Below are positions 1,936 to 64,000 of a stretch of 64,000 nucleotides of DNA, piece by piece (position 1 is the first letter of the stretch; every line of letters begins with the position of its first letter). Both the position numbers and the translations under genes were made by a program. The notes below the pieces were generated by a model that was not told the DNA's origin, did not search any database, and saw nothing but the letters and a program-made list of their open reading frames with translations. The stretch spans positions 12,092,155 to 12,156,154 of the forward strand of contig NC_134033.1 in assembly GCF_964204645.1 (NCBI RefSeq). Direction: 5' to 3'. Origin of the DNA: Tubulanus polymorphus. Lineage: Eukaryota; Nemertea; Palaeonemertea; Tubulaniformes; Tubulanidae.

Positions 1936-12694
<10,759 letters not shown>

Positions 12695-22361: not shown

Positions 22362-22394
22362 CACGCTGCTCTCAAACATCACCACCTCATTAAG

Positions 22395-23477
22395 ATGCGT
22401 TGCTTTAGATATTTTTGGAGGCGGAAATCAGCTTCAATCGTTTTGTTTGCGATATCGCTTTTCGTAATTACCAATATCTACCTCGTTTTGGAAACAACAA
22501 TCATAAACAATAAACCACTACGACGGCAAACGGAGGAAACACTACAAATCTCACCGAAATATATCCCCTCTTCTACTGCCATGAGTAGTGGTAAGCAAAA
22601 ACCAACTAAGAAGAAAGTCCCTACTATAATGACGGTCAGTGCACAGGGGCGATTGGGCAATACTATGTTTCAGTACGCCGCTCTTGTTGGAGTAGCGTTA
22701 GCTAGAGGTCACGTGCCTATCTACCTAAACGAGGGAAACGATTTGAGGAAAATATTCAACATAAGTGCTGCGAAATACCCGGATAGCGAGCTCGGTGTGC
22801 GAGTTACAAAAACTGCCAATCGCTACAACGAGAATTGTTGCCTTTTCGACCCGAAGTTGATGAAAACTGTCAAGATCGCAGGGAATTTTGTGCTGAGCGG
22901 ATATTTTCAGAATTGGCGTTATTTCCATCCACACGCGTCCGATCAGCTGCGGCGTGAGTTCACGTTCAGAAAGCAGGTCACAGACGCCGCCGAATCCTTC
23001 CTGGCGAAAACAACGACAAAATTTAGACAAAAACTCGCAACTACTAAAAACAGTACGGAAGTGACGTATGTGGGCGTTCATGTACGTCGTGGGGACATTA
23101 CGAACGACCGCTATAGAAAATTAGGTATGCGGCAACCGACGATGGATTATTTCAAAAAAGCGATGGCAATTATGGAAAGTTTATACCATAACGTGTTTTA
23201 CGTGATCTGTAGTGACGATTTGAAATGGTGCCGCGACAATTTCGGCTCGATGCCGAACACGGCGTTTTGTCCCGGCACTGATCGTCTGGTCGATCTGGCG
23301 ATTTTATCGAAATCAAACCACTCGATTTTAACGATCGGATCGTTTGGATTCTGGGGCGCGTTTTTGGCAAACGGTACAACGACTTATTTCGGCAGCGCCA
23401 GAGCACTCCGTACAGATGCCGATCGAATGTTCAGCTACGATCAATACTTTATGCCGGAATGGATCAAAATCCCGTAA
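22395..23477 (+). CDS. GT11 alpha-1,2-fucosyltransferase, copy 2
   Basis: Second member of the cluster, 360 residues from the ATG at 22395, which follows the acceptor ctatatttcag (ending 22361). The signal anchor covers residues ~13-33 (SIVLFAISLFVITNIYLVL) and resembles that of copy 1. The stem is longer (about 80 residues before TVSAQGRLGNTMFQYAAL). The catalytic region keeps HVRRGD, the ICSDDLKWC block and the GSFGFWGAFLANGT block. DNA identity to copy 1 through the catalytic half is very high, including long runs of unchanged third positions. The frame is intact and there is no sign of pseudogenisation. An AATAAA at 23910 could serve as its polyadenylation signal. Confidence 0.93.
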   Translation: MRCFRYFWRRKSASIVLFAISLFVITNIYLVLETTIINNKPLRRQTEETLQISPKYIPSSTAMSSGKQKPTKKKVPTIMTVSAQGRLGNTMFQYAALVGVALARGHVPIYLNEGNDLRKIFNISAAKYPDSELGVRVTKTANRYNENCCLFDPKLMKTVKIAGNFVLSGYFQNWRYFHPHASDQLRREFTFRKQVTDAAESFLAKTTTKFRQKLATTKNSTEVTYVGVHVRRGDITNDRYRKLGMRQPTMDYFKKAMAIMESLYHNVFYVICSDDLKWCRDNFGSMPNTAFCPGTDRLVDLAILSKSNHSILTIGSFGFWGAFLANGTTTYFGSARALRTDADRMFSYDQYFMPEWIKIP

Positions 23478-26519: not shown

Positions 26520-26835
26520 AGAATCCTGTTCAACGGTGGATTTCAACAAAGCATTTGATAAGGTTCAACATCAGCCATTACTAAAGAGTCTATTAGGAAA
26601 CAGTATCAATGATAGGTCGTTAAAATGGCTCAGAAGTTATCTCTGAACGGAAACTTGTAACCGAAATCAACGGAACGCCTCATCTTGGAATGAGACGGTC
26701 TAACTAGTGGAGTCACGCAAGGTAGTATCCTAAGTCGTCTTCTGTTTAATGTCCTGACAAATGAAATACACAGTAATCCAAAATATATCAGACCGAGTAA
26801 ATTTCCAAAACGACCTTAACACACTGTTCGACCAA
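26520..26835 (+). pseudogene. Degenerate LINE reverse transcriptase fragment
   Basis: Conceptual translation with frame changes gives VDFNKAFDKVQHQPLL (RT motif with the A-block aspartate), then KWLRSYL, then SGVTQGSILSRLLFNVLTNEI (RT block 4, canonical SGVPQGSVLGPLLF), then NDLNTLFDQ. The order is that of a non-LTR RT palm domain. Frameshifts and missing bases mark it as dead. It abuts the 31-bp satellite directly. Confidence 0.75.
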
Positions 26836-26850
26836 AAAACTTAATGTTCC

Positions 26851-27186
26851 GACAAAACCACGGGGATAAATCCAAAATTATGAATTGTCGCGGGTGACAA
26901 AACCAAAATATTGAATTGTCACGGGCGACAAAACAAAAATAATGAATTGTCGCGGGCGATAAAACCAAAATAATGAATTGTCGCGGGCGATAAAACCAAA
27001 ATAATGAATTGTCGCGGGCGATAAAACCACAATAATGAATTGTCGCGGGTGTTAAAACCAAAATATTGAATTGTCGCGGCGATAAAACCAATATAATGAA
27101 TTGTCGCGGACGACAGAAACAAAATATTGAATTGTTGCGTGCGACAAAACCAGAATAATGAATTGTCGCGGGAGACAAAACCAAAC
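26851..27186. repeat. 31-bp satellite, left segment
   Basis: About ten diverged copies of the 31-bp unit (caaaaccaaaataatg + aattgtcgcgggcga). It is the same satellite as 28288-32672 and is separated from it by a pearl/Helentron-like insertion. Confidence 0.9.
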
Positions 27187-28287
27187 TAGGGGTCCAGGGA
27201 CACCATGCTCACTTGGGAAGTGGTTTCAAATGCTCAACAATCTAACAATTTCAATACATAACGCCCTCTAGTGACCATATACAAAAACCAATGACCTTGA
27301 AACCCACCACAATCATAGAACATGTGAGCAGCTATGATTTTGTAATTGATTGTGATAACAAAATACCAATATGCCTCGTTACCAATTTAATATGGAAATA
27401 CTAAGTTATTCTACTATTCAACGCCCCTGGTGACCATATGCAAAACCCAATGACCTTAAAACTCACCATAATCAGTTAGTTGTCGAATAAACACTATAAT
27501 CCGTGTAAACTGTAGATAAATGAAGAAATCCCACACTTCGAATTTGAAATTATACTATCAAATTAAACTATCGTTTCGGCTGTTGACTAACAGCCATCAT
27601 CAGGTGGAATGATGATGATGATGATGATGGCTGTTAGTCAACAGCCGAAACGTTGTGGTTTCGTAATAATAAATTTGATAGTATAATTTCAAATTCGAAG
27701 TGTGGGATTTCTTCATTTATCTCACCACAATCGTAGTACATGTCATGAAATACAACTTTGCAATTGATCATAGTAACAAAATATGCCTAGGTACCAATCT
27801 AATAAGGAAATACTAAGCCATTCTACTATTCAACGCCCCCTGGTGACTATATGGAATAACTAATGTCCTTAAAAACTCACCACAATCATAGACGATGTCA
27901 TGATCTACAACTTTGCAATGGATCATGGTAACAAACTATGCCTAGGTACCAATCTAATAAGGAAAAACTAAGCTTTTCTACTATTCAACGCCCCCTGGTG
28001 ACTATATGGAATAACTAATGTCATTAAAAACTCACCACAATCATAGACGATGTCATGAACTACAACTTTGCAATTGATCATGGTAACAAAATATGCCTCG
28101 GTACAAATATAATATAGCAATACTAAGTTATTGTATTATTCAACGCCCCCTGATGGCCACATACTAAAACCAATGACCTTGAAGCGTCTTCAAAACTTCC
28201 CAAAAAAACTGGATTCCGTCTATGGACGGACGGACGGACGAAAAGTGAACACAATAGCCCGCTGGGACTAAAGTCCCAAGTGGACTG
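27187..28287. mobile_element. pearl/Helentron-like non-autonomous element, copy 1
   Basis: Starts 'aggggtccagggacacc' and ends in a hairpin (gctgggactaaagtcccaag) followed by 'tggactg'. The interior has about five diverged core units of ~155 bp, each with 'caacgccccctggtg' (near 27260, 27419, 27831, 27986 and 28141). A short ACGG tetranucleotide run near 28225 precedes the 3' hairpin. The 5' 'gctcacttgg' is nearly the inverse of the 3' 'ccaagtggac', giving subterminal inverted repeats. Core repeats plus microsatellite plus palindromic end match bivalve 'pearl' elements and HINE/Helentron families. One core unit is interrupted by the fold-back at 27514-27722. Confidence 0.75.
27514..27722. mobile_element. 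Fold-back element with hammerhead-like core, nested
   Basis: The arms begin 'agataaatgaagaaatccc' and end with its exact reverse complement; the pairing continues inward to a (ATG)n centre near 27606-27632. On the minus strand CTGATGA is followed by the 7-bp stem ggctgtt/aacagcc and then GAAAC (27573-27604), which fits the hammerhead CUGANGA - helix II - GAAA core. In the right arm the CTGATGA end has been overrun by the ATG microsatellite. It lies inside a core repeat of the pearl-like element. Confidence 0.7.
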
Positions 28288-31200
28288 AAAAAGAATTGTC
28301 GCGGGCGACAAAACCAAACTAATGAATTGTCGTGGGTGATAAAACCAAAATATTGAATTGTCGCGGGCGACAAAACCAAACTAATGAATTGTCGCGGGCG
28401 ATAAAACCAAAATAATGAATTGTCTCGAGCGACAAAACCAAAATAATGAATTGTCGCGGACGATAAAACCAAAATAATGAATTGCCTCGAGCGACATAAC
28501 CGAAATAATGAATTGTCGCGGACGATAAAAACAAAATATTGAATTGTCGCGGGCGATAAAACCAAAATAATGAATTATCGCGGGCGATAAAACTAAAATA
28601 TTGAATTGTCGCGGGCGATAAAACCAAAATAATGAATTGTTGCGGGCGACAAAACCAAAATATTGAATTGTTGCGGGCGACAAAACCAAAAAAAAAATTG
28701 TCGCGGGCAACAAAAACAAAGTATAAAACCAAAATAATGAATTGTCGCGGGCGTCAAAACCAAAAACAAGAATTGTCGCGGGCGACAAAACCAAAATAAT
28801 GAATTGTCGCTGGAGATAATACCAAAGCAATGAATTGTCGAGGGCGATAAAACCAAAATATTGAATTGTCGCGGGCGACAAAACCAAACTAATGAATTGT
28901 CGCGGGCGACAAAACCAAAAAAAGAATTGTCGGGGCGACAAAACCAAAATAATGAATTGTCGCGGGCGACAAAACCAAAATGGTGAATTGTCCAGGCGAC
29001 AAAACCAAAATGGTGAATTGTCGCGGGCGACAAAAGCAAAATAATGAATTGTCGCGGGCGACAAAAGCAAAATAATGAATTGTCGCAGGCGATAAAACCA
29101 AAATAATGAATTGTCTCGGGTGACAAAACCAAAATAATGAATTGTCGCGAGCGATAAAACCAAAATAATGAATTATCGCGGGCGCTAAAACCAAAATATT
29201 GAATTGTCGCGGGCGATAAAACCAAAATAATGAATTGTCGCGGGCGACAAAACCAAAATAATGAATTGTCGCGGGCGATAAAACCAAAATAATGAATTGT
29301 CGCGGGCGACAAAACCAAAATAATGAATTGTCGCTGGCGATAAAACCAAAATAATGAATTGTCGTGGGCGATAAAACCAAAATAATGAATTGTCGCTGGC
29401 GATAAAACCAAAATAATGAATTGTCGTGGGCGATAAAACCAAAATAATGAATTGTCGCGGGCGACAAAACCAAAATAATGAATTGTCGCGGGCGATAAAA
29501 CCGTAATAATGAATTGTCGCGGGCGATAAAACCAAAATAATGAATTTTCTCAGGCGACAAAACCAAAATAATGAATTGTCGCGGGCGATAAAACCAAAAT
29601 AATGAATTGTCTCGAGCGACAAAACCAAAATAATGAATTGTCTCGAGCGACAAAACCAAAATAATGAATTGTCGCGGGCGATAAAACCAAAATAATGAAT
29701 TGTCGCGGGCGACAAAACCAAAATAATGAATTGTCGCAGGCGATAAAACCAAACTAATGAATTGTCGCGGGCGATAAAACTAAAATAATGAATTGTCTCG
29801 AGCGACAAAACCAAAATAATGAATTGTCGCGGACGATAAAACCAAAATAATGAATTGTCTCGAGCGACATAACCGAAATAATGAATTGTGGCGGACGATA
29901 AAAACAAAATATTGAATTGTCGCGGGCGATAAAACCAAAATAATGAATTATCGCAGGCGATAAAACTAAAATATTGAATTGTCGCGGGCGATAAAACCAA
30001 AATAATGAATTGTCGCGGGCGACAAAACCAAAATATTGAATTGTTGCGGGCGACAAAACCAAAAAGAAAATTGTCGCGGGCGACAAAAACAAAGTATAAA
30101 ACCAAAATAATGAATTGTCGCGGGCGTCAAAACCAAAAACAAGAATTGTCGCGGGCGACAAAACCAAAATAATGAATTGTCGCTGGAGATAAAACCAAAG
30201 CAATGAATTGTCGAGGGCGATAAAACCAAAATATTGAATTGTCGCGGGCGACAAAACCAAACTAATGAATTGTCGCGGGCGACAAAACCAAAATGGTGAA
30301 TTGTCCAGGCGACAAAACCAAAATGGTGTATTGTCGCGGGCGACAAAAGCAAAATAATGAATTGTCGCGGGCGATAAAACCAAAATAATGAATTTTCGCG
30401 GGCGATAAAACCAAAAAAAGAATTGTCGGGGCGACAAAACCAAAATAATGAATTGTCGCGGGCGACAAAACCAAAATGGTGAATTGTCCAGGCGACAAAA
30501 CCAAAATGGTGAATTGTCGCGGGCGACAAAAGCAAAATAATGAATTGTCGCGGGCGACAAAAGCAAAATAATGAATTGTCGCAGGCGATAAAACCAAAAT
30601 AATGAATTGTCTCGGGTGACAAAACCAAAATAATGAATTGTCGCGAGCGATAAAACCAAAATAATGAATTATCGCGGGCGCTAAAACCAAAATATTGAAT
30701 TGTCGCGGGCGATAAAACCAAAATAATGAATTGTCGCGGGCGACAAAACCAAAATAATGAATTGTCGCGGGCGATAAAACCAAAATAATGAATTGTCGCG
30801 GGCGACAAAACCAAAATAATGAATTGTCGCTGGCGATAAAACCAAAATAATGAATTGTCGTGGGCGATAAAACCAAAATAATGAATTGTCGCTGGCGATA
30901 AAACCAAAATAATGAATTGTCGTGGGCGATAAAACCAAAATAATGAATTGTCGCGGGCGACAAAACCAAAATAATGAATTGTCGCGGGCGATAAAACCGT
31001 AATAATGAATTGTCGCGGGCGATAAAACCAAAATAATGAATTTTCTCAGGCGACAAAACCAAAATAATGAATTGTCGCGGGCGATAAAACCAAAATAATG
31101 AATTGTCTCGAGCGACAAAACCAAAATAATGAATTGTCTCGAGCGACAAAACCAAAATAATGAATTGTCGCGGGCGATAAAACCAAAATAATGAATTGTC

Positions 31201-32672
31201 GCGGGCGACAAAACCAAAATAATGAATTGTCGCAGGCGATAAAACCAAACTAATGAATTGTCGCGGGCGATAAAACTAAAATAATGAATTGTCTCGAGCG
31301 AAAAAACCAAAATAATGAATTGTCGCGGACGATAAAACCAAAATAATGAATTGTCTCGAGCGACATAACCGAAATAATGAATTGTGGCGGACGATAAAAA
31401 CAAAATATTGAATTGTCGCGGGCGATAAAACCAAAATAATGAATTATCGCAGGCGATAAAACTAAAATATTGAATTGTCGCGGGCGATAAAACCAAAATA
31501 ATGAATTGTCGCGGGCGACAAAACCAAAATATTGAATTGTTGCGGGCGACAAAACCAAAAAGAAAATTGTCGCGGGCGACAAAAACAAAGTATAAAACCA
31601 AAATAATGAATTGTCGCGGGCGTCAAAACCAAAAACAAGAATTGTCGCGGGCGACAAAACCAAAATAATGAATTGTCGCTGGAGATAAAACCAAAGCAAT
31701 GAATTGTCGAGGGCGATAAAACCAAAATATTGAATTGTCGCGGGCGACAAAACCAAACTAATGAATTGTCGCGGGCGACAAAACCAAAATGGTGAATTGT
31801 CCAGGCGACAAAACCAAAATGGTGTATTGTCGCGGGCGACAAAAGCAAAATAATGAATTGTCGCGGGCGATAAAACCAAAATAATGAATTTTCGCGGGCG
31901 ATAAAACTAAAATAATGAATTGTCTCGGGCGACAAAACCAAAATAATGAATTGTCGCGAGCGATAAAACCAAAATAATGAATTATCGCGGGCGATAAAAC
32001 CAAAATATTGAATTGTCGCGGGCGATAAAACCAAAATAATGAATTGTCGCGGGCGACAAAACCAAAATATTGAATTGTCGCGGGCGACAAAACCAAACTA
32101 ATGAATTGTCGCGGGCGACAAAACCAAACTAATGAATTGTCGGGCCGACAAAACCAAAATAATGAATTATCGCTGGCGATAAAACCAAAATAATGAATTG
32201 TCGCGGGCGATAAAACCAAAATAATGAATTGTCGCGGGCGACAAAACCAAAATGGTGAATTGGTGCGGGCGACAAAACCAAAATAATGAATTGTCGCGGG
32301 CGATAAAACCGTAATAATGAATTGTTGCGGGCGATAAAACCAAAATAATGAATTTTCTCAGGCGACAAAACCAAAATAATGAATTATCGCGGGCGATAAA
32401 ACCAAAATATTGAATTGTCGCAGGCGATAAAACCAAAATATTGAATTGTCGCGGGCGACAAAACCAAAAAGGAAAATTGTCGCGGGCGACAAAAACAAAA
32501 TATAAAACCAAAATAATGAATTGTCGCGGGCGACAAAACCAAAAAGAAGAATTGTCGCGGGCGACAAAACCAAAATAATGCATTGTCGCTGGCGATAAAA
32601 CCAAAGTAATGAATTGTCGTGGGCGATAAAACCAAAATAATGAATTGTCGCGGGCGACAAAATCAAAATCAT
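28288..32672. repeat. 31-bp satellite array, main block (~4.4 kb)
   Basis: About 140 head-to-tail copies of a 31-bp unit. Variants such as 'gtctcgagcga', 'gtcgctggcga' and 'ggtgaattgtccagg' recur in fixed order, showing higher-order repeats. A marker 'aaag/atataaaacc' near 28721, 30094, 31590 and 32500 gives spacings of 1373, 1496 and 910 bases. Because 31 is not a multiple of three and the unit has no stop in any minus-strand frame, long overlapping reading frames with a 31-residue period (ARDNSLFWF, RPRQFIILVL, SPATIHYFGF) occur in all three. They are judged non-genic. Confidence 0.95.
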
Positions 32673-33692
32673 TGTTTTCTCGCGTTATTTTAGTTTTGTC
32701 GTTTTGTCGTAATGTCGCCCTCATTTGCATATTCGTGTTTTGTTATCTTATCAGCCACCATACTAAAGCTTTAAAGTCGCGTAAAACTCGATAAACACTT
32801 CATGCGACCCAGCGAACGATCTCCTTTCCCCCACAGCGAACGCTTACTCCGAATGTCAAGTGTGAGTCCAGCATACGGATACGAGTGTGTTTTATACTTG
32901 TATTTAGTAAATACCTTGTGGATTTGACAATGATCGGTATGTACTGTAGGAAATATAGAATATTGATGGTATTGATATGGAGGCCCGCGGCCGAATAAAG
33001 TAATATATTCTTTTATTTTGATACCTCGTCGACATAACAGCTTTTCTCCGCTATAATCTCTTCGGCCTACGACTCCCCGGTACACTTATGATTTATCTTA
33101 GTAAAAACACGGTAAATTTGGTAAAGAAAAATAGGTATTGCTAAATTAACTGCTTGACGCCCGCAGCCAAATCACTGGTAGTAATAAATTAATTTGTACT
33201 CGATTTGATTCTCAGAATGAGGAGAAACTCGCAGCTGATTCCCGGAACGACGATGTAGTGACACACGTCGATTTGTCGATGTTTACGGCTCGACAGTGCT
33301 TTTAAACTCCAAAGTAGTAAATTTCCTGTGTATTGGTATTATAATTTGATGAGGAAAATGTGTTATTGTTAAAATTAGTTTTTAAAAACCGCGACAGAAT
33401 GTGCAATCTTTGGGTAATAAATTTGTTAATTTATGCTTGAATCGATAATCGATGTGACAAGAAACGTGCGGTAGATTTCGGAAAGACGACTTAGAAAAAC
33501 ATGTCGGCTCTTTGAATGGGGCTCAATTTTCGATGTTTACGGCCCGACAGTGCTTTTGTAACGTTGATTCTTCAAAATTCGCACGGAGTATTTGTAGATC
33601 GAACTGAGCTGAATGATATCAGACGGATTGTATCGGCAACAGCGGTAATGTAAAAAAGCCTATGTACTTTTGACAAAAAATGTGTGGAAAAA

Positions 33693-33782: not shown

Positions 33783-33927
33783 AATAATCTTATAAGGTCT
33801 TCGATGATTATTCATCGTCGATAATATGGAGATATTGCGTGTTATTTTGCTTCAAATTAGTTTTCTCGTTTGCACGTCGTATATTTCAGCAGGTTGTTCG
33901 AAACACCCCGATCACCGACACAGAAGG

Positions 33928-34974
33928 ATGATGCGCTGGGTAACATATCCTCTGAGGAAGCGGCTTTCGTACGTACTGTTGGGAATGATATTATTCGTAA
34001 TTGTCGGTGGCATCTTTCTACACGCGCCAATCACTAAACAATTACGCACACGGGCGAAACCTACGTCAGCGAAAAAGGTCGAAATCGTCTGCGTTACGTT
34101 GAAAAGCATCGTCGTTAATACCAGTATGACGGTAATCACGCGGGAAAGACTTGGCAATAATATGTTTCAGTACGCCGCTCTTGTTGGGGTCGCGTTAGCT
34201 AGAGGTCATGTGCCTATCAACCTAAACGAAGGAAACGATTTGAGGAAGATATTCAACATAAGTGCTGCGAAATACCCGGATAGCGAGCTCGGTGTGCGAG
34301 TTACAAACAATTCTAATCGCTACAACGAGAATTGTTGCCTTTTCGACCCGAAGTTGATGAAAACTGTCAAGATCGCAGGGAATTTTGTGCTGAGTGGATT
34401 TTTTCAGAATTGGCGTTATTTCCATCCACACGCGTCCAATCAGCTGCGGCGAGAATTCACGTTCAGAAAGCCGGTCGCAGACGCCGCCGAATCCTTCCTG
34501 GCGAATGCAACGACGAAATTAAGACAAAAACTCGCAACTACTAAAAACAATACGAAAGTGACGTATGTGGGCGTTCATGTACGTCGTGGGGACATTACGA
34601 GCGTCGGCTATAAAAAATTAGGTATGCGGCAACCGACGATGGATTATTTCAAAAAAGCGATGGCAATTATGGAAAGTTTATACGATAACGTGTTTTACGT
34701 GATCTGCAGTGACGATTTGAAATGGTGCCGCAAGAATTTCGGCTCGATGCCGAACAAGGCGTTTTGTCCCGGCACGGATCGTCTGGTCGATCTGGCGATC
34801 TTATCGAAATCAAACCACTCGATTTTAACGATCGGATCGTTTGGATTCTGGGCCGCATTTTTAGCGAACGGTACAACGACTTATTTCGGCAGCGCCAGAG
34901 CACTCGGTACAGATGCCGATCGAATGTTCAGCTACGATCAATACTTTATGCCGGAATGGATCAAAATCCCGTAA
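33928..34974 (+). CDS. GT11 alpha-1,2-fucosyltransferase, copy 3
   Basis: Third cluster member. The start at 33928 gives 348 residues; a second in-frame ATG is the next codon. The frame is open further upstream to 33826, but the acceptor atatttcag (ending 33889) makes the upstream part intronic by analogy with the other copies. The signal anchor lies at ~17-35 (LLGMILFVIVGGIFL) and has little in common with copies 1 and 2. From TVITRERLGNNMFQYAAL onward the protein is nearly the same as its paralogues, with HVRRGD, ICSDDLKWC and GSFGFWAAFLANGT intact. Its C-terminus and ~50 bases of 3' flank follow copy 1 closely. The frame is intact. Confidence 0.92.
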   Translation: MMRWVTYPLRKRLSYVLLGMILFVIVGGIFLHAPITKQLRTRAKPTSAKKVEIVCVTLKSIVVNTSMTVITRERLGNNMFQYAALVGVALARGHVPINLNEGNDLRKIFNISAAKYPDSELGVRVTNNSNRYNENCCLFDPKLMKTVKIAGNFVLSGFFQNWRYFHPHASNQLRREFTFRKPVADAAESFLANATTKLRQKLATTKNNTKVTYVGVHVRRGDITSVGYKKLGMRQPTMDYFKKAMAIMESLYDNVFYVICSDDLKWCRKNFGSMPNKAFCPGTDRLVDLAILSKSNHSILTIGSFGFWAAFLANGTTTYFGSARALGTDADRMFSYDQYFMPEWIKIP

Positions 34975-38557: not shown

Positions 38558-38662
38558 TATAACTATTTCTCAGAACTGTAATCTAATCGATTTTTTTTTA
38601 TTTCATGAATTTCAGCTGGTTGTTTTCGATATCGCTCGAATAACGTTTTCAACACGAATTTG

Positions 38663-39697
38663 ATGAAGTATTCTGTTCGGACGATTTCGTTCGTGTTGTT
38701 CGGGATATTGTTGTTCGTGATTCCTGGCATCTACCAATTGATTCAGACGACTTCGATAGCCACCAGGAATCACCAACTGCAGGAGGTGAAAACTATTACA
38801 CGACTAACTCCGACGACGAAGGTTATGCCGAAAGGGGTCGCTACTAGTATGACGGTTATTACGCAGGCGCGATTGGGCAATAATATGTTTCAGTACGCCG
38901 CTCTTGTTGGGGTCGCGTTAGCTAGAGGTCACGTGCCTATCTACCTAAACGAGGGAAACGATTTGAGGAAAATATTCAACATAAGTGCTGCGAAATATCC
39001 GGATAGCGAGCTCGGTGTGCGAGTTACAAAAAATTCTAATCGCTACAACGAAAATTGTTGCCTTTTCGACCCGAAGTTAATGAAAACTGTCAAGATCGAA
39101 GGGAATTTTGTGCTGAGCGGATTTTTTCAGAATTGGCGTTATTTCCACCCGCACGCGTCCGATCAGCTGCGGCGAGAGTTCACGTTCAGAAAACCGGTCG
39201 CAGACGCCGCCGAATCCTTCCTGGCGATTGCAACGACGAAATTTAGACAAAAACTTGCGACTACTAAAAACAATACGAAAGTGACGTATGTGGGCGTTCA
39301 TGTACGTCGTGGGGACATTACGAACAACCACTATAGAAAATTAGGTATGAGGCAACCGACGATGGATTATTTCAAAAAAGCGATGGCAATTATGGAAAGT
39401 TTATACCATAACTTGTTTTACGTGATCTGCAGTGACGATTTGAAATGGTGCCGCAAGAATTTCGGCTCGATGCCGAACACGGCGTTTTGTCCCGGCACGG
39501 ATCGTCTGGTCGATCTGGCAATTTTATCGAAATCAAACCACTCAATTTTAACGATCGGATCGTTTGGATTCTGGGGCGCGTTTTTAGCGAACGGTACAAC
39601 GACTTATTTCGGCAGCGCCAGAGCGTTCAACACTGAAGTAGAACGTGTGTTTAGTTACGATCAATACTTTATGCCGGAATGGATCAAAATCCCGTAG
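38663..39697 (+). CDS. GT11 alpha-1,2-fucosyltransferase, copy 4
   Basis: Fourth cluster member, 344 residues from the first ATG at 38663, after an acceptor (atgaatttcag, ending 38615). The anchor at ~9-28 (FVLFGILLFVIPGIYQLI) and the stem differ from the other three. From TVITQARLGNNMFQYAAL the DNA is close to copy 1. HVRRGD and the later blocks are intact. Near the C-terminus the sequence departs after GSARA (FNTEVERVFSYDQY instead of LGTDADRMFSYDQY), and the 3' flank after the TAG stop is unlike that of copies 1 to 3. Homogenisation therefore seems to stop within the last coding codons. The frame is intact. Confidence 0.92.
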   Translation: MKYSVRTISFVLFGILLFVIPGIYQLIQTTSIATRNHQLQEVKTITRLTPTTKVMPKGVATSMTVITQARLGNNMFQYAALVGVALARGHVPIYLNEGNDLRKIFNISAAKYPDSELGVRVTKNSNRYNENCCLFDPKLMKTVKIEGNFVLSGFFQNWRYFHPHASDQLRREFTFRKPVADAAESFLAIATTKFRQKLATTKNNTKVTYVGVHVRRGDITNNHYRKLGMRQPTMDYFKKAMAIMESLYHNLFYVICSDDLKWCRKNFGSMPNTAFCPGTDRLVDLAILSKSNHSILTIGSFGFWGAFLANGTTTYFGSARAFNTEVERVFSYDQYFMPEWIKIP

Positions 39698-44144: not shown

Positions 44145-47100
44145 TTATCTCCAAATTCTACAAGTGTTGTCTTTACTTCCTATGAATAAGAAAATACAAC
44201 GAAATATATGCAGAAAATGTAAAAATATCATCGCGAACAAGCAGTATTTTCTATTTGTTCATTTCTATTTACCCGTTATGATTGTGGTGCCTTCATAATT
44301 GAAAGAGCAGCTGAATATCTCGTCTGTGTGACCCTGTAGTATGTGTAAACATTCACCGGTCTCGTAATTCCATAACCTCGCCGTCTTATCAGCGCTCGCT
44401 GTTAAAACCATCGTTCCTTGAGGGTTGAAGGCGATCTGTTTCGAGTATAAAATGATCCTCGATTAAAAGAAGGGTTTAACTTCAGAATACATGAGACAGA
44501 TTAAACGTGATTGATTACGCATTAATTTTCAAGATGTTGTTATTGATGTGTCAGTTTCAACGCTATATCAGTAGCCACTATGAGATATCTCATAGTTCCA
44601 GTGCTATAACAGAAGCCACTGTGAGATATCTAATAGTTCCAGTGCTATTACAGAAGCCACTTTGAGATATCTCATAGTTTCAGTGCTATAACAGAAGCCA
44701 CTGTGAGATATCTCATAGTTCCAGTGCTATAACAGAAGCCACTGTGAGATATCTAATAGTTCCAGTGCTATTACAGAAGCCACTGTGAGATATCTCATAG
44801 TTCCAGTGCTATAACAGAAGCCACTGTGAGATATCTAATAGTTCCAGTGCTATAACAGAAGCCACTGTGAGATATCTAATAGTTCCAGTGCTATAACAGA
44901 AGCCACTGTGAGATATCTAATAGTTCCAGTACTATAACAGAAGCCACTGTGAGATATCTAATAGTTCCAGTGCTATAACAGAAGCCACTGTGAGATATCT
45001 AATAGTTCCAGTGCTATAACAGAAGCCACTGTGAGATATCTCATAGTTTCAGTGCTATAACAGAAGCCACTGTGAGATATCTAATAGTTCCAGTGCTATA
45101 CCAGTAGCTAATATGACATATCTCATAGTTCCAGTACTATACCAGTATCCACTAAGAGATATCTCATAGTTCCAATGCTATATCAGAAGCTTCGTAACTG
45201 TACCTTCGAGATTTCTCCTTCGTGTCCTTCCATTTTGGAGATACATTTATGCGTAGTTGCGTCGTAGCACCGCGCCGTCGAATCTGCCGAGGCCGTCAGT
45301 AAATATTTGCCCGTATAGTCGAACGTAACGTCGAGAACTTCGTCGTCGTGACCATGAAGCGTTCCGACGCATCGACCTGCGAAAACAATTCCTCATTAAT
45401 TAGCCCTTCCAGATTTAGGGGGTGGTCTCAGGGATCCGGACCCCTCACTTCCCAATCCGGGTTGCCCCTTTCGTCAAGACAGATATTGTAGAAACCTACA
45501 AATCTGACACTCATCCACTCGAAAATTGCATCTTTTAGAATGGATTTTACTCTGGCGTGGCTGCTATACTGAGAAATACCTTTTCTTTTCTTCTGGACCA
45601 AAGCTTCCAATTTTTCTAGATCCACTCCTCCTCCTGGGCCCAGTTTCACGAAAAATGTTTTACTCTCAAATCCGTTTAATTTCTTCATTAATCCAGTTTA
45701 TCTTAAATCGATTTTGGCCTAAATGCATTTTTGTGAAACTCGGCCCCGTTCAACCAACTGTAAGCCGGGATAACACGATAACACACGACGTTACGACACT
45801 TACCGTCCTTCGGATCCCAGAGTCGACAAGTTTTATCCATCGAACCGGTGGCGATCAGCGAACTATCCCAGTTGAACTGCGCGCTACTGATTTCGGCTTT
45901 ATGTCCGATCAGGGTATGAACGATACTGAAACAAAAAATACCGATCGCGATAAGATAATTCACACGATGTTAGGCGGTAAAAAGGAGAATGGCGGTTTAT
46001 CACCGGTTAATTTGTATCAAATTTCAAGATAAAATACCAATGATTTGTTCCCAGAAAAGGTCTGGCATTAGGCAGGGGTGGCAGTTTATCGGGGGTTTTC
46101 TGCATTTCTGAAAATGAGCGTATTTTCAACAACATTTCAGGGAGAGAATTTCATTGCCGGTTTACTGAGCTGAACTTACGTCTGTGTCGCGACGTCCCAC
46201 AAACAGACCGTATTGTCGAACGATCCTGTAATCATTTGATTTCCCGTGGTGTTGAACGCTAGAGATATGATTTCCGCTGAATGACCCTGAAATAACGCAT
46301 GAATAAGAGTGAGCACCAGGCAGAGATATTTGCTCGACTAACCCAGGTTCCCTACAGATCAGTCATTCCTGGATATACAGAGTCCCTACAGATCAGTCAT
46401 TCCTGAATATACAGGATTCCTACAGATCAGTCATTCCTGGATATACAGGGTTCCTACAGATTAGTCATTCCTGGATATACAGAGTCCCTACAGATCAGTC
46501 ATTCCTGGATATACAGTGTCCCTACAGATCAGTCATTCCTGGATATACAGAATCCCTACAGATCAGTCATTCCTGAATATACAGAATCCCTACAGATCAG
46601 TCATTCCTGGATATAAGGAGACTTCACTTATAAGAGAAAATTTATAAGAGAAAATTTATAATTTTAATGGTCTGCGTTACATTCATATCCCAATAGACTC
46701 CTAAATCGGTACTGTTTATTCTCGTTCAGTGGTTTTGTTTAAGCATACTTTTATCCTTAAGACAACCTTATGTCAGTTTATAATTTGGTAACCGCCTAAT
46801 TGAGTAAAAACACATCCCAGCCACCCGTAGCGATTTAGGCGTAGTTTATTGTACAACTACAAACTAGACAAACATTTCTAATCGTCTATATTTCTCAAAA
46901 TAGAAAGAGTTTCAGGCATATTGCTCAAATCAAAGGAGTTATGAGCATTTTCAAGCATTTTCAGTTGGGGAGAATCAAGGAATCAAGGAGTCATAGAGAA
47001 CCTGTAACCTAACAATTGAACAAAATACTGATATACATCATTTTTTTTCTAAATTTGTCGTTGAAGAAACTTACACTCAAAGTACAAACTTCAAGACCAG

Positions 47101-52110: not shown

Positions 52111-55100
52111 TCATTGTGTCGGATAACCACGACCCGAACGCTTGCAGAGCTTCACCGACGTTTCCAAACTGATACCCCACTTTTCGACATCTTTCAGTAA
52201 CGGCGAGTGAAGACCTTTATCGGCTTCTCGGGCTAACTGACCACATGTGACCGAATCTATGTTATATCCAACGTCGGAAAACGGGTTTGCCGGGTCCACA
52301 ATCCACGGTCTGAAAGATTAAGGACAATCATGATTTTCAGTAGAAGTTGATTAATTTTGTTTTCTTTTTACAGTTAATACAATCCTGTTTATCTAAGTAA
52401 GCATCGCCATCGCATTGTACCGAATGATTTAGGTAATACATGTTCGCCAAATAGAGATTTAATGTATGTTTGCTTCAGCTAGTATACTGGTTCAGCAGGG
52501 CTGTGCATAGCAAGGGTCAGAGGGTAGACCCCGAAATGTCGAAAAGTACCAATTTTGCAAATATCATTGTTATATCCTATATAAGAAATCTAATGTAGAA
52601 TCCTTCACGTGGGACTGACAAGCATTTTTATAAGCCAAAAATAGTTTTTATTATGGCATATTTAAGAAGAATCATTATATCGATTTTTTTGTTTTAGGTA
52701 AATCCTTTTTTGGGTTTCACTGCCCCCTCACATCCTTATGCACGGTAAGGCCCTGGAATGTATCTACACATGACGTAGATCCATCTAACGCGTAATCGAG
52801 ATGATTAGTAGATACATTCATCCATGACTGAGTAGATCCATTCATCCATCTATCCACCTATCCACATATCTGGCACTAAGATCCTCAGTGATGACTGTTA
52901 GTAGACCTAGTATTCTAAATCAGTTAATTAATAATTAACAATTACCTGCCAGGCCGCGGTTCACAGCACGGTCTGTCGTAGTTAACAGTCCATTTTATCC
53001 TAATGGACCCCGGATCCGTAAGTCGTTGTAACACGGTACGGAGTCCGACTCTGAGGTCAAAGCTCCGAGGACTTCCTGCTCTCTCCCACGTATCTATAAC
53101 CAATAACTCGTAAAAGTATGACGGCGGTCCTTTCTTGAAAATAGAAATAAGATGATTCGTTGTAAATTTCAAAACACACATGCTAACTAAGTATAAATGT
53201 TGATTGGGACGCTGCAATTTCGTAGTGATAGTTGTCACCGTCAAATTTGTGTGATCATTATACTAAAATCGGTACTAGAAAATGTCGGTAGGGGGTGAAA
53301 CTTCGTACGGGATGTAACGATGAAACTTAAATAATTCGATTCAATTTCCTCATAAATTAAATTCATCTTAACTCGATTAAAGAGTGAATCCAGTTACACC
53401 TAACTCGATTTAAGCGAAACTGAATAAAAATAATCTGGATTTATTTAGAAATATTTTGATTTAACTAGGGGTCCAGGGACACCATGCCCACTTGGAAAGT
53501 GGTTCCAAATGCTCAACAATCTAACAATTTCAATATTCAACGCCCCCTGGTGGCCATATACAGAATCCAATAACCTTGAAACTCACCACAATCATAGAAC
53601 ATGTCAGCAGCTACGATTTTGTAATTGATTGTGATAACAAAATAATCCTCGTTACCGCTATAATATGGAAATACTAAGTTATTCTACTATTCAACGCCCC
53701 CTGGTCACCATATTCAAAACCCAATGACCTTGAAACTCACCACAATCATAGAACATGTCACGAACTATAACTTTGTAATTGATCATGGTAACAAAATATG
53801 CCTAGGTACCAATATAATAAGGAAATAATAAGTTATTCTACTATTCAACGCCCCCTGGTGACCATATAGAATAACTAATGGCCTTAAAACTTGCCACAAT
53901 CATAGATGATGTCATGAGCTACAACTTTGCAATTGATTGTGGTTACAAAATATGCATTGATACGAATATAATATAGAAATACTAAGATATTGTATTATTC
54001 AACGCCCCCTGGTGGCCATATGAAAAAACCAATAACCTTGAAACTCACCACAATCATAGAACACGTTATGAGCTACAACTTTCTAAATGATTGTGGTAGC
54101 AAAATACGCTTAGGTATCAATATAATGTGGAAAAAACTTTTTCCCACTTACGAACGAGTACTGCTGACACCAAGATGGCCGCCAATTGCGTCATAATTGG
54201 CTGATGAAAAATACCTGTCTCAGGTATAAAACATCCCTTTCCAAAGAATACCCATCACAAATTGCAATGAGAAATGATAAACCAGTAGGAAGCTACAGGA
54301 CTCAGAATTTGGGCCAAAATTAACATTTTTGGGCACTAAAAAGGTCATAGGACGGCCATCTTGAGTCCGATCGACCCAATTTTTGTTATGCTGATGGGCC
54401 CTGGGGGAATTCACATATATCCGAAAGATCAAGGTAATTGATCAAAGCGTCTTCAAAATTTCCCTCAAAAAGTTCAAAAATGTGTAAAAAGTGCTGATTT
54501 TGGCGAACAACAATGGCTGCCAGTCGGCCATCTTGAATCTGACTGGGCCAGTTTTAGGCTGAAGATGTGTCTAGGGTAGATACATGCGTAACCCAAATAT
54601 CAAGATATTACCTTGAAGCGTCTTCAAAACTTCCCAAAATAACTGGATTCCGTCTACGGCCGGACGGACGACGGACGAAAAGTGAACGCAATAGCCCGCT
54701 GGGACTAAAGTCCCAAGTGGGCTAAAAATTAAACTTTTCATGAAATCGAGGCCAGAAGTGAATAAGTCGTGTACATATGCTACGCAATCAAGGAACAACG
54801 ATTGGGTGCTCAGATCGTAGGAACAGCAAGCCGCGCAATAATCTGCTGAATATCTTAAAAGAAACATCAAGGTTCAAATCTAGACTATTTTGTGATTGAA
54901 AGTGTTGATATTAGAGAAAACCTGGGTTCAGACGGTATGTTCTACTACCGATCCCTATTCAAACGTACTTTATCATTTACCTAGAATTTAGAAATCTAAC
55001 CTGGAAAGAACGTCTTGTTTTTGACCAGTATTTCACTGTTCGTATCAGACTTTTTACGATCGTAGGTTGTTTCTTAACGAATTCGAGCTGTAACGGGGCA

Positions 55101-56194
55101 AGTGGTGCAGAATAGAATCCCCTCGACCTACCATCGATATTCCGCATTTCACCATAGATATCTGCCTCTAAAAACGTTAAAATTAATCCATGCTTTTATT
55201 AATTCTCTGTCAACTCTCTGTTGGTTTTACTGATCTAACTGTGGATTTTACTGATCAACACGTATATCGATTATGATAGACACGCTTACTACCAGGATAG
55301 CGTTTCAAGATATCGTAAGTTGGCAGAAGGTCAACTTCGTGGAACTCGTCATCATAGCGTCCCCGGAGTTTCAAGTTTATCAGGTATGAATCCCGACGAA
55401 TCAATTTCAATTTGCCCTCTCTGTTCCACTTATGGGCGGCCAGAATATCCCATATGTTATCGATGCACTCTTTAATTTTGAGTTGTATATTGTCCATGCC
55501 GCGGAAATTGTTGATATACATCACACAGTCGATATCGGCCTTGCCAATGACGGCTGTACCTTTACCTAACGATCCGGACTAGAATTAGAAAAAAAGACAC
55601 GTACACGCAACATATCAACAAAATGCACTAAAGATATCACATTCACCATATACAGCTAGCTGCTAAACATTGAAGTCACAAAAACAGTCCTACGAACTGA
55701 AAGTAACTGATAAGGCCGGCGTTAGAGTCGAAGACTTGAAATGGCGGTAGCGCACAAATCAAAACGCTAAAAAACCTCTGCTTTGTGTTTTCTGCAATGT
55801 GTGTTTCTCCGAACACGAAACATTGCCATGTGCGCACGACTTACATTGTTTTTAATGACATGCGTTTAATTCGTTTTCATTTTCATTCAGACAAAATAGT
55901 GTCCTTATCGTTTTTTGTTTGTTTTGAGGATTCCGAGGTTGACTGCAAAAGGCATCTGGCGGTGTAAGTACGTACCTTAGAGCGCCAGTCCTAACAAGTT
56001 ATCGATACGGTTTTTACCTTAACAACTTCACTGACGTCGAATGGCACATTTTCGGAATGAAGATACCTTATCAACATGTCAAGAGCTCGTTTAAAACCGT
56101 CGTGGTATTCTTCCGTAGGTTGGATGGAATGAGCTTGAAATGTGTTCATCTCTGAATTGCACGTATCATAAGGACTTTTAACACGTATATTCAT
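52111..56194 (-). CDS. 2'-5'-oligoadenylate synthetase-like (OAS-family) nucleotidyltransferase
   Basis: A polymerase-beta-fold enzyme of the OAS/cGAS group; known members make 2'-5' linked nucleotide products from ATP, in vertebrates on binding double-stranded RNA. Exons in transcription order: 56194-56018, 55578-55290, 55167-55001, 53133-52946, 52309-52111. GT-AG borders and phases agree, giving 1020 nt (339 residues). An in-frame stop lies just before the ATG at 56194, which supports this start. Catalytic domain: VVKSGSLGKGTAVIGKADID carries the GS loop and aspartates D74 and D76; D142 lies in HEVDLLPTYD. This triad spacing matches OAS1. The C-terminal half resembles the OAS1_C domain (ELLVIDTWERAG, LRVGLRTVLQRLTD, IKWTVNYD, VDPANPF). 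No cGAS-type zinc module is seen. A 5' non-coding exon is possible near 56280-56336. The 1.87 kb intron holds a pearl/Helentron-like element. The family call is strong; the exact product and activator are unknown. Confidence 0.92.
53464..54728. mobile_element. pearl/Helentron-like non-autonomous element, copy 2
   Basis: Same family as 27187-28287: it begins 'ctaggggtccagggacacc' and ends with the hairpin 'gctgggactaaagtcccaag' and 'tgggctaaaaatt'. Four core units occur at a 154-bp period ('caacgccccctggt' at 53538, 53692, 53846 and 54000), with an ACGG-type microsatellite near 54658-54680. The subterminal repeats gcccacttgg (53486-53495) and ccaagtgggc (54713-54722) are perfectly inverted. 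A unique stretch of about 450 bases (54140-54600) is absent from copy 1. It lies in an OAS-like intron. Confidence 0.75.
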
Positions 56195-57111: not shown

Positions 57112-60100
57112 ATGGGGGAGAATGAACACCAACTAGAAAACAATAATGTCAATAAAAATCAATATTATTGTCAATATTGTAAAAAATACATCGATACATC
57201 TCATAAAACACGACATGAAAAAACTGTAAATCATATAAAAAATGTAATAGATTTTGAAACTCCAGAAAATTCTAATGAAAGAAAAGAACGATTAGAAAAT
57301 ATGAATGTGGATGAAATAAAATGTGAAGTTTGTAATGAATTTATAGTAAAAAGGAATTATAATAGACATCTCGAATCACAAAAACATTATAAAAATTTAA
57401 ATAAAAATGTTTTAGGATTAGAATATTTTGATAATAAACCTCAACAAGTAAAAGAATCAACTTCAAAAACTAAATCAATTTCAAATAAACCTTACATGGA
57501 AAATGTTAGAAATTATATTGATTCACTAGAAATAAAAGATACAATTGAAATCTTAGAAACATTACATAGTAAAATTGGTCCTGCAGCTATTATATTTAGA
57601 TTTTTTAAAGGTACAACAATAGAAGATTATAGTACATTTAATGAAATAATAGAAAAATTACTAGATTTGATAACAGATGTTGAATATCCAAAAATTAGTA
57701 TCTCTGGGAAAGTAAGTTTTATAAAGTCAGAAGAAAAAATGAATTATAATATTCAAACACACTCTGAAGAAATAATTTCAAAAACACAAATAAAAGAGAA
57801 GTTAGAAAAAATATTAAATGAATTTAAACGTCATATTGAAGAAAGATATTTTGAGGGTTCTGGCTTAACATTGAATGAAATTATATATTTAGATTTAAAT
57901 GTTTATAATACAAAAAGGAATAAAACATCAAAAAGTAATAAAATGTTTAAAAATGATTCAAACTTTACAACAGAAAAGGATATTAAAGCATCATCTTATA
58001 TTAAATTACCATTTACAACAAAAGCAGTAATAAATGTTCAAAATGAAGATAATAAATGTTTTCTATGGTCAATTATTAGTTGTTTACACCAAACAGAAGA
58101 TATGACGCATAGTTTTAGAATAACAAATTACCGGAAATATGAAACATTATATAAAATTGATCAATATCCAGTAACTATAAAAATGATTCCTAAAATAGAA
58201 AAAATTAATAATTTAAAAATAAATGTATTTGAATTAATGCAATTACCAAAGACAAAAGGTGAAAATATTAAAGATTATACATTGGAAGCTTTATATTTAA
58301 CAGAATATTATGATGATGAAAATGCTATAGATTTGTTATATTACAAAAAAGATGAAAATGAACATTATATGTGGTTAAAACAAATTGATTTATTCTTTTG
58401 AACAACAGAAAGTGATCATCATCGTAAAATTTATCTATGTAGAAAATGTTTATCTAAATTTATGACTGAGAATACATTATTAAAACATAAAGAATTATGT
58501 GATAATAAAGATTTTTGTAAATTAATAATGCCAACAGAAAAAGATTATAAATTGAAATTTACTAATCATAAATTTAAGAATATTGTTCCATTTGTAATTT
58601 ATGGGGATTTTGAATCGTTGAATAAAGAATTAACTGATCAAGATAGAAAAGAAATATATAACAAAAAGCAATTATTAAAATCAATGGATAAAGGAAATGA
58701 ATTAAATGAAGACGCAATACAAGACCCACCAATTATAAATACAATTAAAAAAGTTCATCAAAGAGCTGCTGCTTATGGAATTTACATCAAATCAAATTAT
58801 CCCGAATTATATGAAAGTCAATATATTTCTTTTAGAGGTGAAAATGTAGTTAATGATTTTTGTGATAAAATGATTGAATTAGAAAGTGATTTTACAAAAT
58901 TATTAAACAAAAATAAAAGAATAGTTATGACAAAAGAAGATGAAATTGATTTTAATTATGCAACTCATTGTTGTTACTGTGAAAAACGTTTTTATTCATT
59001 TGATAAAAAAGTTAGAGATCATGATCATTTAAATTCAAAATATCGTGGAGCTGCTCATGAAGATTGCAATTTACAAGCTAAAAAAGTAAATTTCGTACCA
59101 ATATTATTTCATAATTTATCAGGATATGATACCCATCTACTTATAAAACAATTATCGGGAAAATTGGGCGCAATTAATCAAGAAATAGAAGAATATAATG
59201 CTATGAATGAAGCAAATGTAAGAAAATATGATTTTAAACTATTAGCTAAAACATCTGAAAATTATATTTCATTTCAATTTGGTTGCATTAGATTTTTAGA
59301 TTCTTATAGATTTCTAGCAAGTTCATTAGATAATTTATCAAAAAGTTTAGTTGATAATGATTTTGTTATAACTCGATATTATTATCCAAATGAACAAGAT
59401 TTTAAATTATTGAGATATAAAGGCGCAATTCCTTATTCATTTTATAAAACACATGATGATTTTAATGTAACAGAATTATTAAAAGATCAATTTTATGATA
59501 AATTAAAAGAGGAGTATGTGAAAGACGAAGTGTTTAATAGAACATTAAATATTTGGAACCATTTTAAGATGAAAAATCATGGCGAATTAGTTGATTTATA
59601 TTTAAAATCAGATGTTATGATATTGGCTGACATATTTGAAAAATTTAGAGAAGTTAATTTGAATCATTTAAATGTTGATCCGGTTCCTGAACTTCGCTGA
59701 AAAAGCTGAAACACTGAAACGCTGAATCGCTGAAATAAAAACGCTGAAATTTCAGGGAATTTCCGAAAAACGCCGAAATTTCAGGGAATTCCCGAAAAAC
59801 GCTGAAATCGTGCTAGGTACCGACAATACTCGTTTTGAAATATTTTCCGGGCCGGTGTCCGCTGCCGAGTCCTGAACCGTGTTTTGCATGGGCAGTATGT
59901 GTGGAGTATACTTCTAGAGGGCCACTTGTTGGACAAATTAATTCGCTTGAAATCCGGATTTTTAATGCATACAGGCAGCATGATGAGGAAAACCCATTCA
60001 CAAACCGTGCAAGCCAACTTAAACACTATGCTCAATATTCCAAGAATATGGTTTACTTCTGCAAGACGTAACGTTCATTCATGTATAAAACAGGATTATG

Positions 60101-61374
60101 AGCAACTTTTCTTTTGTCAACACGTTGATGGGCGACGGACTATGGTATTCTCTGAAGGAGGTAAATTAAATTTGACAGCTAGTTATATAAATGATGCAGC
60201 TTTTGGACAAAAGGGATCTAACTAAATTTCTTTTTTATTCACCGTGGAATGGAATGGATTGACGCCAATGACATGCAGTAGGCCCCTACTTATAGGTCAT
60301 ACCAATTAGCGTCAACCAATTAATCTAAATCGGGCAAACCATTCAACACCTGTAATTTATTTGCTGTGGTGTGATAATAATAAGTTTTTTTTGAAAAAAT
60401 GACATACCAACTGTTAGAAAAATTTACCGATTCTTATTTTTAGACTACTACGGTAATACCGATAAAGATAATCTATAAAAGGAGGAGTCATAGACAAAGT
60501 TGATTTGCCTAGCTGGACACACTTCTTGTCCAGTTCATCATCTCAAGTATTGGGTGTTTTGTAAGTTGTTTCAGTATTTATTTACAAAGTGCTGTTCCCT
60601 CGGACCTCAGTGCTTTCAAACTAGGCCCACCCCATAGGCTATATCTCCAGGGTGTATTAGCCACTACTCTTTTATTTCCTACTTTAAATGCACTTTTTTC
60701 AATTTTTAGACTCGGGCTAAGAATGTGCAAATTTGAGAAATCAGATAGCACTAGTTAACTTCAACTGCGAAATTTACAGCAGGATAGCTGAACGACACAA
60801 TTTTTAAAAACAAAATGGCTATTTGAATGCTATTTCAGTAATAACTTGATTCAACCAGAGAGAAATAAGTCAATTGCGGATGTACAGTACACCCACTTTA
60901 CTTATCCGTTTTCCTGGTACCAAATTTGTTATCTTAAGCTAAGCAATATTCTTAGGTATGCTAGTGAATTTCATTAGAATATGAAGCAATGGAACCAGAA
61001 TTCAAGCCCGAGTTAAGCGAACTATTGATTCTGATATAATGTAAGAACTGATTTCTTTTGTGTACTCTTGCAGAATGTGTTAAGTATTATTTTAAGCTGT
61101 TAAATGATATAGTTAGACAAACGTCCAATTATTGGATCTTTCTTGTTGACTCGTTTAATTTTGTGAGTTTAGAGTTCCAGTCAATCCACAATGTGTAGTG
61201 CCTAGCCTTCATCTAGTACTAAAGCCAAGCCTGTGTATGGGAAAACGTTGTTCGACTCTCATAAGCCAGACAAATCAAAGCATGCAATACATTGCAGATA
61301 GTAGTATCCAGCAAGTAGACAGAGAAAGTAAACCAGGTTTTACCCTGTACCCTACCCGGCATCTTCACCTGTCA

Positions 61375-61430
61375 AGGGATTCGAACCCACTACACTAAAG
61401 CTGTTCTCCGAACCGCTTGACCTCACGAGT
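61375..61430 (-). repeat. tRNA-like SINE fragment inside the Mutator-like element
   Basis: The minus strand shows 'ggtcaagcggttcgg' (A-box-like) and 'gtgggttcgaatccc' (B box) in tRNA order, but without a foldable acceptor stem. Confidence 0.4.
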
Positions 61431-62068
61431 CGTTACTAGCCGACCAGAATCAGGTCGGGCCAATCACAGCGCTTGTTACAAATGACATTGGGCATCTGTG
61501 GAATTTCCCGGTAAATGGACCAATCAGCGAACACGTAGCGAAGGGGAAGTATTGTCGCGTGTTGATATATGACGTCATGCTCAAAAGCGCCGGTAATGAA
61601 ATCGCGCGTCGTGAGGCCAGGGGGCTGCTGGAAGCGAGTTTGGGAGCAATACTGGTCTCCTGGCAAGCGAGGATGCCTACCCGGGAACGAAAGACACTTC
61701 AATACTCCTTTCTTGTAGAGATTGTAGAAATATGGCACCCAATCGTAGTAATGCTAAGTACCAGTATACTATGACGGTTGAACCTTTATTCACACCGAAA
61801 TAGAATCAAAGTAGTCATAAGTTCCATGCTAGCACTTAATTTGGGTTATCAGGTTCAGCCTAACTAGCTGTACTTTCATTCAGCTACTACTTTTGTATGA
61901 GAATTGGCAATGATAAGTTGCAAGAAATCACCAAACATAAGAAAAAATATTGAGAATTAATATTACTGTAATTAAGAATTTATTCAAATGAAGTGATAAT
62001 TTCATTGTTAGATCGTACCGGTATATGCGCATAAAACAAAAAACACATCTAACAATCCACGCAAATCG

Positions 62069-62820
62069 CAATGCAAAAACCGTAAAGTTTCCCAAGTCTC
62101 TGTTTATAACGCATGCGCATTAGGAAGTGTTGGGGAAATCCTCTAAGTCTAGAAACTGGTCGCGTGCGCATGCGTCGCTACATGTGTATTTTTTCCTAAA
62201 CTGGGTCATGTCAGAACGCTGAAACATAGAACTATAACGGACTGAACTTGCGTGAACTTATGCGCAGCGGGAAGGCGCAGTTTGTTTGGTCACTTACGAG
62301 GATCATTTGTATTTTTTGGAATGACAGGTGTTCAAGTGGTCTTGCCATAAGCTGAAAATCTAAGATATATATCGGTATATTAAAAAGGATGAATGTATTT
62401 TTCTGCTACACATTCGGGATTCGAACCTAATAGCACTTAAAAGTAAATCCTGTCTATTTTATGTTCATTGTTTCATATTCGGGATGCTGTAACTTTTTCC
62501 TTGGCAAACAATAACCCAGCGACACTTTAATCATCAAAGTTCATGTCGTAACGCTTGAAATACGATCAGTAATTTTCGGGTTTCGAACCTGATAGCGCCG
62601 CTTAAGATGAACAGCGTAAATAAGATCAATATTTTTACGGGATTCGAACCTAATGGAAACTACAGTGACTATTAGTCATTAAAGTTCACATGCAGTTCAC
62701 ATGTAGTGCCGCATGCGCAATGTGCCGATTTCGCGACTAAGAGCAATTCCAGCACTGACTAATGCGCATGCGTTAGGTAGAAACGGAGACTTGGGAAACT
62801 TAACGGTTTTTGCATCCGCA
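62069..62820. mobile_element. Nested inverted-repeat element inside the Mutator-like element
   Basis: The left block 'atgcaaaaaccgtaaagttt...aacgcatgcgcat' (62069-62120) and its reverse complement (62762-62815) bound about 640 bases. The interior has three spaced copies of a 'ttcgggattcgaacctaa(t)' type stretch (near 62408, 62576 and 62638). It is non-coding. Confidence 0.6.
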
Positions 62821-64000
62821 ATCGATCAAGTCGAACATGACGACGACCTCAAGGCATGTCTCTGTAACCGAAGGTAGAGACTAAAACGGTTCAGGACTCG
62901 GCAGCGGACACCGGCCCTGAAAGAATTTCAAAACGTGTATTGTCGGTACCTAGCACGATTTCAGCGTTTTTCGGGAATTCCCTGAAATTTCGGCGTTTTT
63001 CGGAAATTCCCTGAAATTTCAGCATTTTTATTTCAGCGTTTCAGCTTTTCAGTGTTTCAGCTTTTTCAGCGAAGTTCAGGAACCGATGTTGATCCTTGTT
63101 ATTGTTATTCTAGTCCTGGTTTAACCTGGCAATGTGGTTTAAAATATACAAATGTAGAATTAGATTTATTAAAAGAACCAGATATGGTTTTATTATTTGA
63201 AAAATCAATTAGAGGTGGAATTAGTGGTGTTATGGGAGATAGGTATTTTAAAGCAAATGATGAATATAAATTATTATATATTGACGCTAATAATTTATAT
63301 GGTTGGGCAATGATGCAACCTCAACCATATAAAAATTTTATATTAACAGAAGTTGAAAATGGTGATAAAACTGATTGGGAAAACGCAATTGCGAGTTTAA
63401 AAGATGAAGCACCAATTGGTTATTTCTTTGTAGTTGATTTAGAATATCCTTAAAATATAAAGTTTAAAACAAGAAACTTACCTTATTGCCCAGAACATTT
63501 AACTGTAGATGATAGTTATTTAAGTGAATACCAGAAGAAAATAAAACCGAAAGATCATGTTTTTACAGAAAAATTAATACTTACTCAAAATAATAAATAC
63601 AATTATATTGTTCATTATAGAATGTTAAAATTTTATCTAAAACAAGGAATGAAATTAAAGAAAGTACATAGATATATTGAATTTAATCAATCGAAGTGGT
63701 TAGAAAAATATATAGATTTCAATACTCAACAGAGAACCATATCAAAAACAGATTTTGAAAAAGATTTTTTCAAATTGATGAACAATAGTTTTTATGGAAA
63801 AACATGTGAAAATATTAGAAATAGAAATGATATTGAATTAGTAAATAATTCTGAAAGATTAAGACATTTACAATCAAGTCCTAGACATTTAGGAAATAAA
63901 AGATTTGAAGATTATTTAACTGCGGTAAAATTAAAAAGAACGTCCATGAAATTTAATAAACCAATATTTATAGGTTCAACTGTTTTAGAAATTTCAAAGC

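Follow-up and report, generated by a model that had tools for sequence, protein, structure and literature searches.

OAS enzymes encoded in genomes that lack RNase L have been published from four sponges, two corals, Nematostella, a springtail, the Pacific oyster, the owl limpet, Lingula and an acorn worm (Hu et al. 2018, PMC6307210), and share 23-33% identity with human OAS1. In sponges, enzymes in which T187 and T190 (pig numbering) are changed synthesize both 2-5A and 3-5A in the absence of dsRNA, and docking has tied the loss of 2' specificity to these changes (PMC6307210). OAS (PF10421) and cGLR (Mab-21) form separate superfamilies, OAS falling within bacterial clade C (PMC10732462). For the role of 2-5A where RNase L is lacking, the genome described here is a compact example: it carries four OAS genes, all with an intact triad, of which three are recent tandem copies that appear to have exchanged sequence, and no RNase L was found in it.

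The OAS gene of the window, copy A, has much in common with mammalian OAS1 (PDB 4ig8, 4rwn; about 30-33% identity): the OAS1_C domain, the GS motif, the catalytic triad, the equivalents of K213 and Y230, and a single OAS unit. With the oyster, limpet, Lingula, acorn worm, coral and springtail enzymes it shares an OAS unit without ubiquitin-like domains in a genome where RNase L was not found. The sponge enzymes (Geodia, Lubomirskia and others) resemble it in the substitution of both T187 and T190 and in an incomplete basic dsRNA face; the sponge enzymes have been characterised by assay. Given the published cases, it comes as no surprise that an invertebrate without RNase L has an intact OAS, and the rarity implied by the initial annotation is wrong, as OAS is on record from sponges, cnidarians, molluscs, a brachiopod and a hemichordate, and also from a springtail (PMC6307210). 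Copy A is an ordinary member of the family, set apart by a few testable active-site changes. The genome adds one species to the known pattern of OAS without RNase L and leaves that pattern unchanged; its notable features are a tandem trio that recombines, an old paralog and the substitutions in the acceptor pocket.

Structure of the gene and its surroundings

The window is the whole 64,000-nucleotide stretch analysed here and corresponds to C9:12092155-12156154; the assembly comprises 77 contigs and 268 Mb. Copy A occupies 56194-52111 on the minus strand, and its five exons join into a single open frame of 339 amino acids. All four introns are of the GT-AG type, with phases 0, 1, 0 and 2. The predicted splicing pattern gives the following features:

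56018..56194, minus strand: exon 1, residues 1-59, from the ATG to ...SEVVK; phase-0 splice donor AAG/GTAAAA
55290..55578, minus strand: exon 2, GS motif S60-G-S-L-G-K-G-T, D74, D76 and D142; splice donor GGTA/GTAAGC
55001..55167, minus strand: exon 3, start of OAS1_C; acceptor pocket S175/A176/A179/Q182; K187, K194 and K201
53134..55000, minus strand: intron 3, with three 154-nt tandem units at about 53527-54134
52946..53133, minus strand: exon 4, core of OAS1_C, GPPSYFYELL...WTVNYD
52111..52309, minus strand: exon 5, RPWIVDPANPF... to the stop codon

Exon 2 has a second possible splice donor, with 55293 as the last exon base, whose use would yield a protein one residue shorter. The repeats of intron 3 are reminiscent of marine lophotrochozoans, and the small size of the genome, like its gene content, is in keeping with an invertebrate. 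The coordinates, strand and residue numbers of the initial annotation are exact, in agreement with the five-exon frame and the alignment to human OAS1; its description of a complete OAS-like enzyme with an intact triad and OAS1_C in the C-terminal half is supported by the frame, the alignment and the Pfam matches given below.

Several other elements of the window were recorded. A Matrixin (M10) exon (PF00413, 2.3e-23) lies at 6943-7452 on the plus strand. Four similar glycosyltransferase 11-type ORFs on the same strand (18648-19724, the first, PF01531, 8.6e-30; 22338-23474; 33808-34971; 38609-39694) constitute a tandem fucosyltransferase-like family near copy A. A long repeat array at about 26800-32750 shows extended minus-strand open frames (repeated 'ARDNSLFWFYRPRQF') and a strong AT skew. 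Tandem repeats with units of 41 and 34 nt are found at 44430-45303 and 46310-46683, respectively. The region 57112-64000 (plus strand) is AT-rich and resembles a mobile element: a U1-type zinc finger ORF is followed by a type B DNA polymerase ORF (PF03175, 4.5e-8) and then by an inserted segment, about 3.4 kb long, whose inverted arms of 203 nt occupy 59681-59883 and 62883-63085.

Family assignment

Copy A matched the Pfam models OAS1_C (residues 159-315; E=5.6e-24; score 85.2 bits, the cut-off being 19.9) and NTP_transf_2 (E=3.6e-4). Comparison with solved structures retrieved OAS2 (E=4.8e-39), OAS1 (E=7e-28), OAS3 and OASL. No cGAS, cGLR or Mab-21 chain matched copy A among the solved structures up to E=10, a profile of the three tandem copies described below again retrieved no cGAS or cGLR chain, and the Mab-21 domain (PF03281/PF20266) had no Pfam match in copy A. 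The absence of such matches is informative, because a Mab-21-type protein of this genome, run against the same structure library, retrieved cGAS chains and a Mab-21 domain protein. Judged by these homologies, copy A belongs to the OAS superfamily, and its predicted fold is already fixed by the solved OAS structures.

The initial annotation had left room for a cyclic-dinucleotide product, and a cGLR supplying such a messenger to STING would share the general CD-NTase fold that OAS and cGLR have in common. Some invertebrates do carry many cGLRs (PMC9980059). As OAS and cGLR are distinct superfamilies and the structure matches of copy A are to OAS only, with OAS1_C present and Mab-21 absent, this option has little support and we regard it as extremely improbable. 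Models of the STING ligand-binding and transmembrane domains had no match in this genome, nor in the control genomes, so that they lack a working positive control. The Mab-21 genes found, a MAB21L-like gene and two Mab-21_C genes in which a GS/DxD site was not evident by eye, include no clear cGLR.

The NTase half of copy A also matched, weakly, the bacterial clade C CD-NTase CdnC (PDB 6p80; E=1.4e-6, and 0.0034 with the three-copy profile), which fits earlier work that derives OAS from clade C (PMC10732462). Unlike in the OAS matches, the OAS-specific C-terminal part was not covered to the same extent, and clade C enzymes make cyclic products.

Tandem copies and a distant paralog

A genome-wide protein search with a single OAS protein found four OAS genes, three on C9 and one on C11:

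56194-52111, C9, window coordinates, minus strand: copy A
97258-93230, C9, coordinates continued from the window, same strand: copy B
109453-106674, C9, coordinates continued from the window, same strand: copy C
8666426-8666328, 8666257-8665972, 8665660-8665506, 8665278-8665094 and 8664396-8664261, C11, minus strand: exons of the paralog

The C9 genes span about 57 kb and their proteins are 88-94% identical. Frames, splice sites and triad are intact in all three. A reading of the exon 2 donor sites limits copy C to the donor of the 55293 type and copy B to the other one. Purifying selection appears to have acted between the copies: in the core, non-synonymous changes are fewer than expected under neutrality (dN/dS 0.42-0.52, dS 0.07-0.13; Fisher p 0.05, 0.018 and 0.005, on 13-25 synonymous differences and with estimates affected by gene conversion). 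The frame of copy A is not a chance one, since the two tandem paralogs keep frame, splice sites and triad at these dN/dS values, and since a paralog of only 33% identity, on C11, has the same exon phases. On this sequence evidence, the predicted gene is confirmed as a real and intact gene of the animal OAS enzymes, the family that makes 2'-5' oligoadenylates.

Copy A has a mosaic structure: it shares 98% identity with copy C between 57026 and 54723, likewise 98% with copy B in introns 3 and 4, and only 87% with copy C downstream of 53464; the switch from C-like to B-like sequence falls around intron 3. Past exchange of sequence among the C9 copies is therefore likely. Beyond about residue 320 the C-terminal tails of the three copies differ through frame change.

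Recent duplication, recombination and frame-changed tails could also be expected of a decaying tandem copy, whose triad is intact merely because too little time has passed since its function was lost. We consider this quite unlikely for copy A, as it has no in-frame stop, splice sites are kept in each member of the trio, non-synonymous changes stay below the neutral level, and the changes of the tail fall outside OAS1_C.

The C11 gene has the triad, the same four intron phases as copy A and an OAS1_C match of E=1.6e-19; an upstream exon may be missing from the N-terminus of its model. Its identity to copy A (about 33%) is no higher than that of copy A to human OAS1, which suggests that the duplication separating it from the C9 trio is old.

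Active site, dsRNA-binding face and partner genes

Residues were compared by alignment to human OAS1, and human numbering is used unless stated otherwise. G61-S62, D74, D76 and D142 of copy A correspond to G62-S63, D75, D77 and D148 of the human enzyme. On the nucleotide-donor side G62, S63, K66, K213 and Y230 are kept (own numbers G61, S62, K65, K201 and Y217). Three positions count against the functional reading given below: on the donor side S74 is replaced by A and Q229, unlike in mammalian OAS1, by S, and on the acceptor side the R130 position, within a gappy stretch of the alignment, is paired with Y. On the acceptor side S187 and Q194 are kept, whereas T188 and T191 of mammalian OAS1 are both A. 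These two substitutions bear on the product question and make linkage specificity testable; because T191 has its equivalent in the C11 paralog, that gene provides a natural comparison for the C9 copies.

The dsRNA contacts of human OAS1 were taken from a published list (PMC8143464). Human positions in the N-terminal part were assigned manually by way of pig OAS1, the numbering of which is one lower. R195, which we take to be a dsRNA contact as well, was added separately. Copy A keeps K60, K199, T203 and K206 (own numbers K59, K187, T191 and K194) as well as S56 and G67. Unlike in mammalian OAS1, the contacts R27, R195 and K204 are replaced by H, L and I, and the N-terminal region is five residues shorter, the five-residue gap lying at the K42 region. 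New basic residues, R152, K188 and R234 in copy A's own numbering, appear at three contact positions, those of Q158, Q200 and T247. The basic face thus seems partly kept, and because some contacts are retained and others lost, activation by dsRNA may be possible, perhaps in a weaker or different form.

A narrower reading, compatible with membership in the OAS family, is that copy A is a dsRNA sensor of the vertebrate OAS1 type, strictly 2'-specific and dsRNA-dependent. The four retained contacts K60, K199, T203 and K206 and the extra basic residues R152, K188 and R234 would suit such a sensor; the three lost contacts, the gap at K42 and the T188A and T191A changes of the acceptor pocket would not, and we hold this reading to be possible but doubtful.

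From these comparisons we infer the activity, linkage, RNA dependence and role of copy A. It is very probably a functional-looking invertebrate nucleotidyltransferase of the OAS family, a member of a recent tandem trio, that would make linear 2'-5' oligoadenylates and possibly some 3'-5' product. ATP would occupy the conserved donor site, D74, D76 and D142 would hold two metals, and linear 2'-5'-linked oligoadenylates would be the main product. Some 3'-5' linkage may occur because two threonines of the acceptor pocket are replaced by alanine; in proposing it as possible we reuse the docking-based argument of a single paper.

Matches to the KEN domain were found genome-wide in only two exons, on C4, belonging to a gene that we read as IRE1 from its kinase exons (HRDIKPHNVLISLP..., DFGLCKKL) and its KEN exon (KHHYRELP...). 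RNase L (ankyrin plus KEN), the partner of mammalian OAS1, was not detected genome-wide by this exon-by-exon search, which could miss a divergent gene with short exons and which has some power, as the known KEN gene was recovered. The initial annotation had noted no evident RNase L partner in the window and proposed a genome search; its observation is borne out, the sole KEN gene being the presumed IRE1. As far as detected, the downstream reader of the OAS product is not RNase L. A bolder scheme, in which the tandem array, with neither RNase L nor STING detectable, uses a relaxed acceptor pocket to signal through mixed 2'-5'/3'-5' oligonucleotides to some other receptor, appears unlikely.

Long retroelement-like ORFs lie between the exons of the IRE1-like gene, at about 2000-6400 of the segment C4:18929000-18938900.
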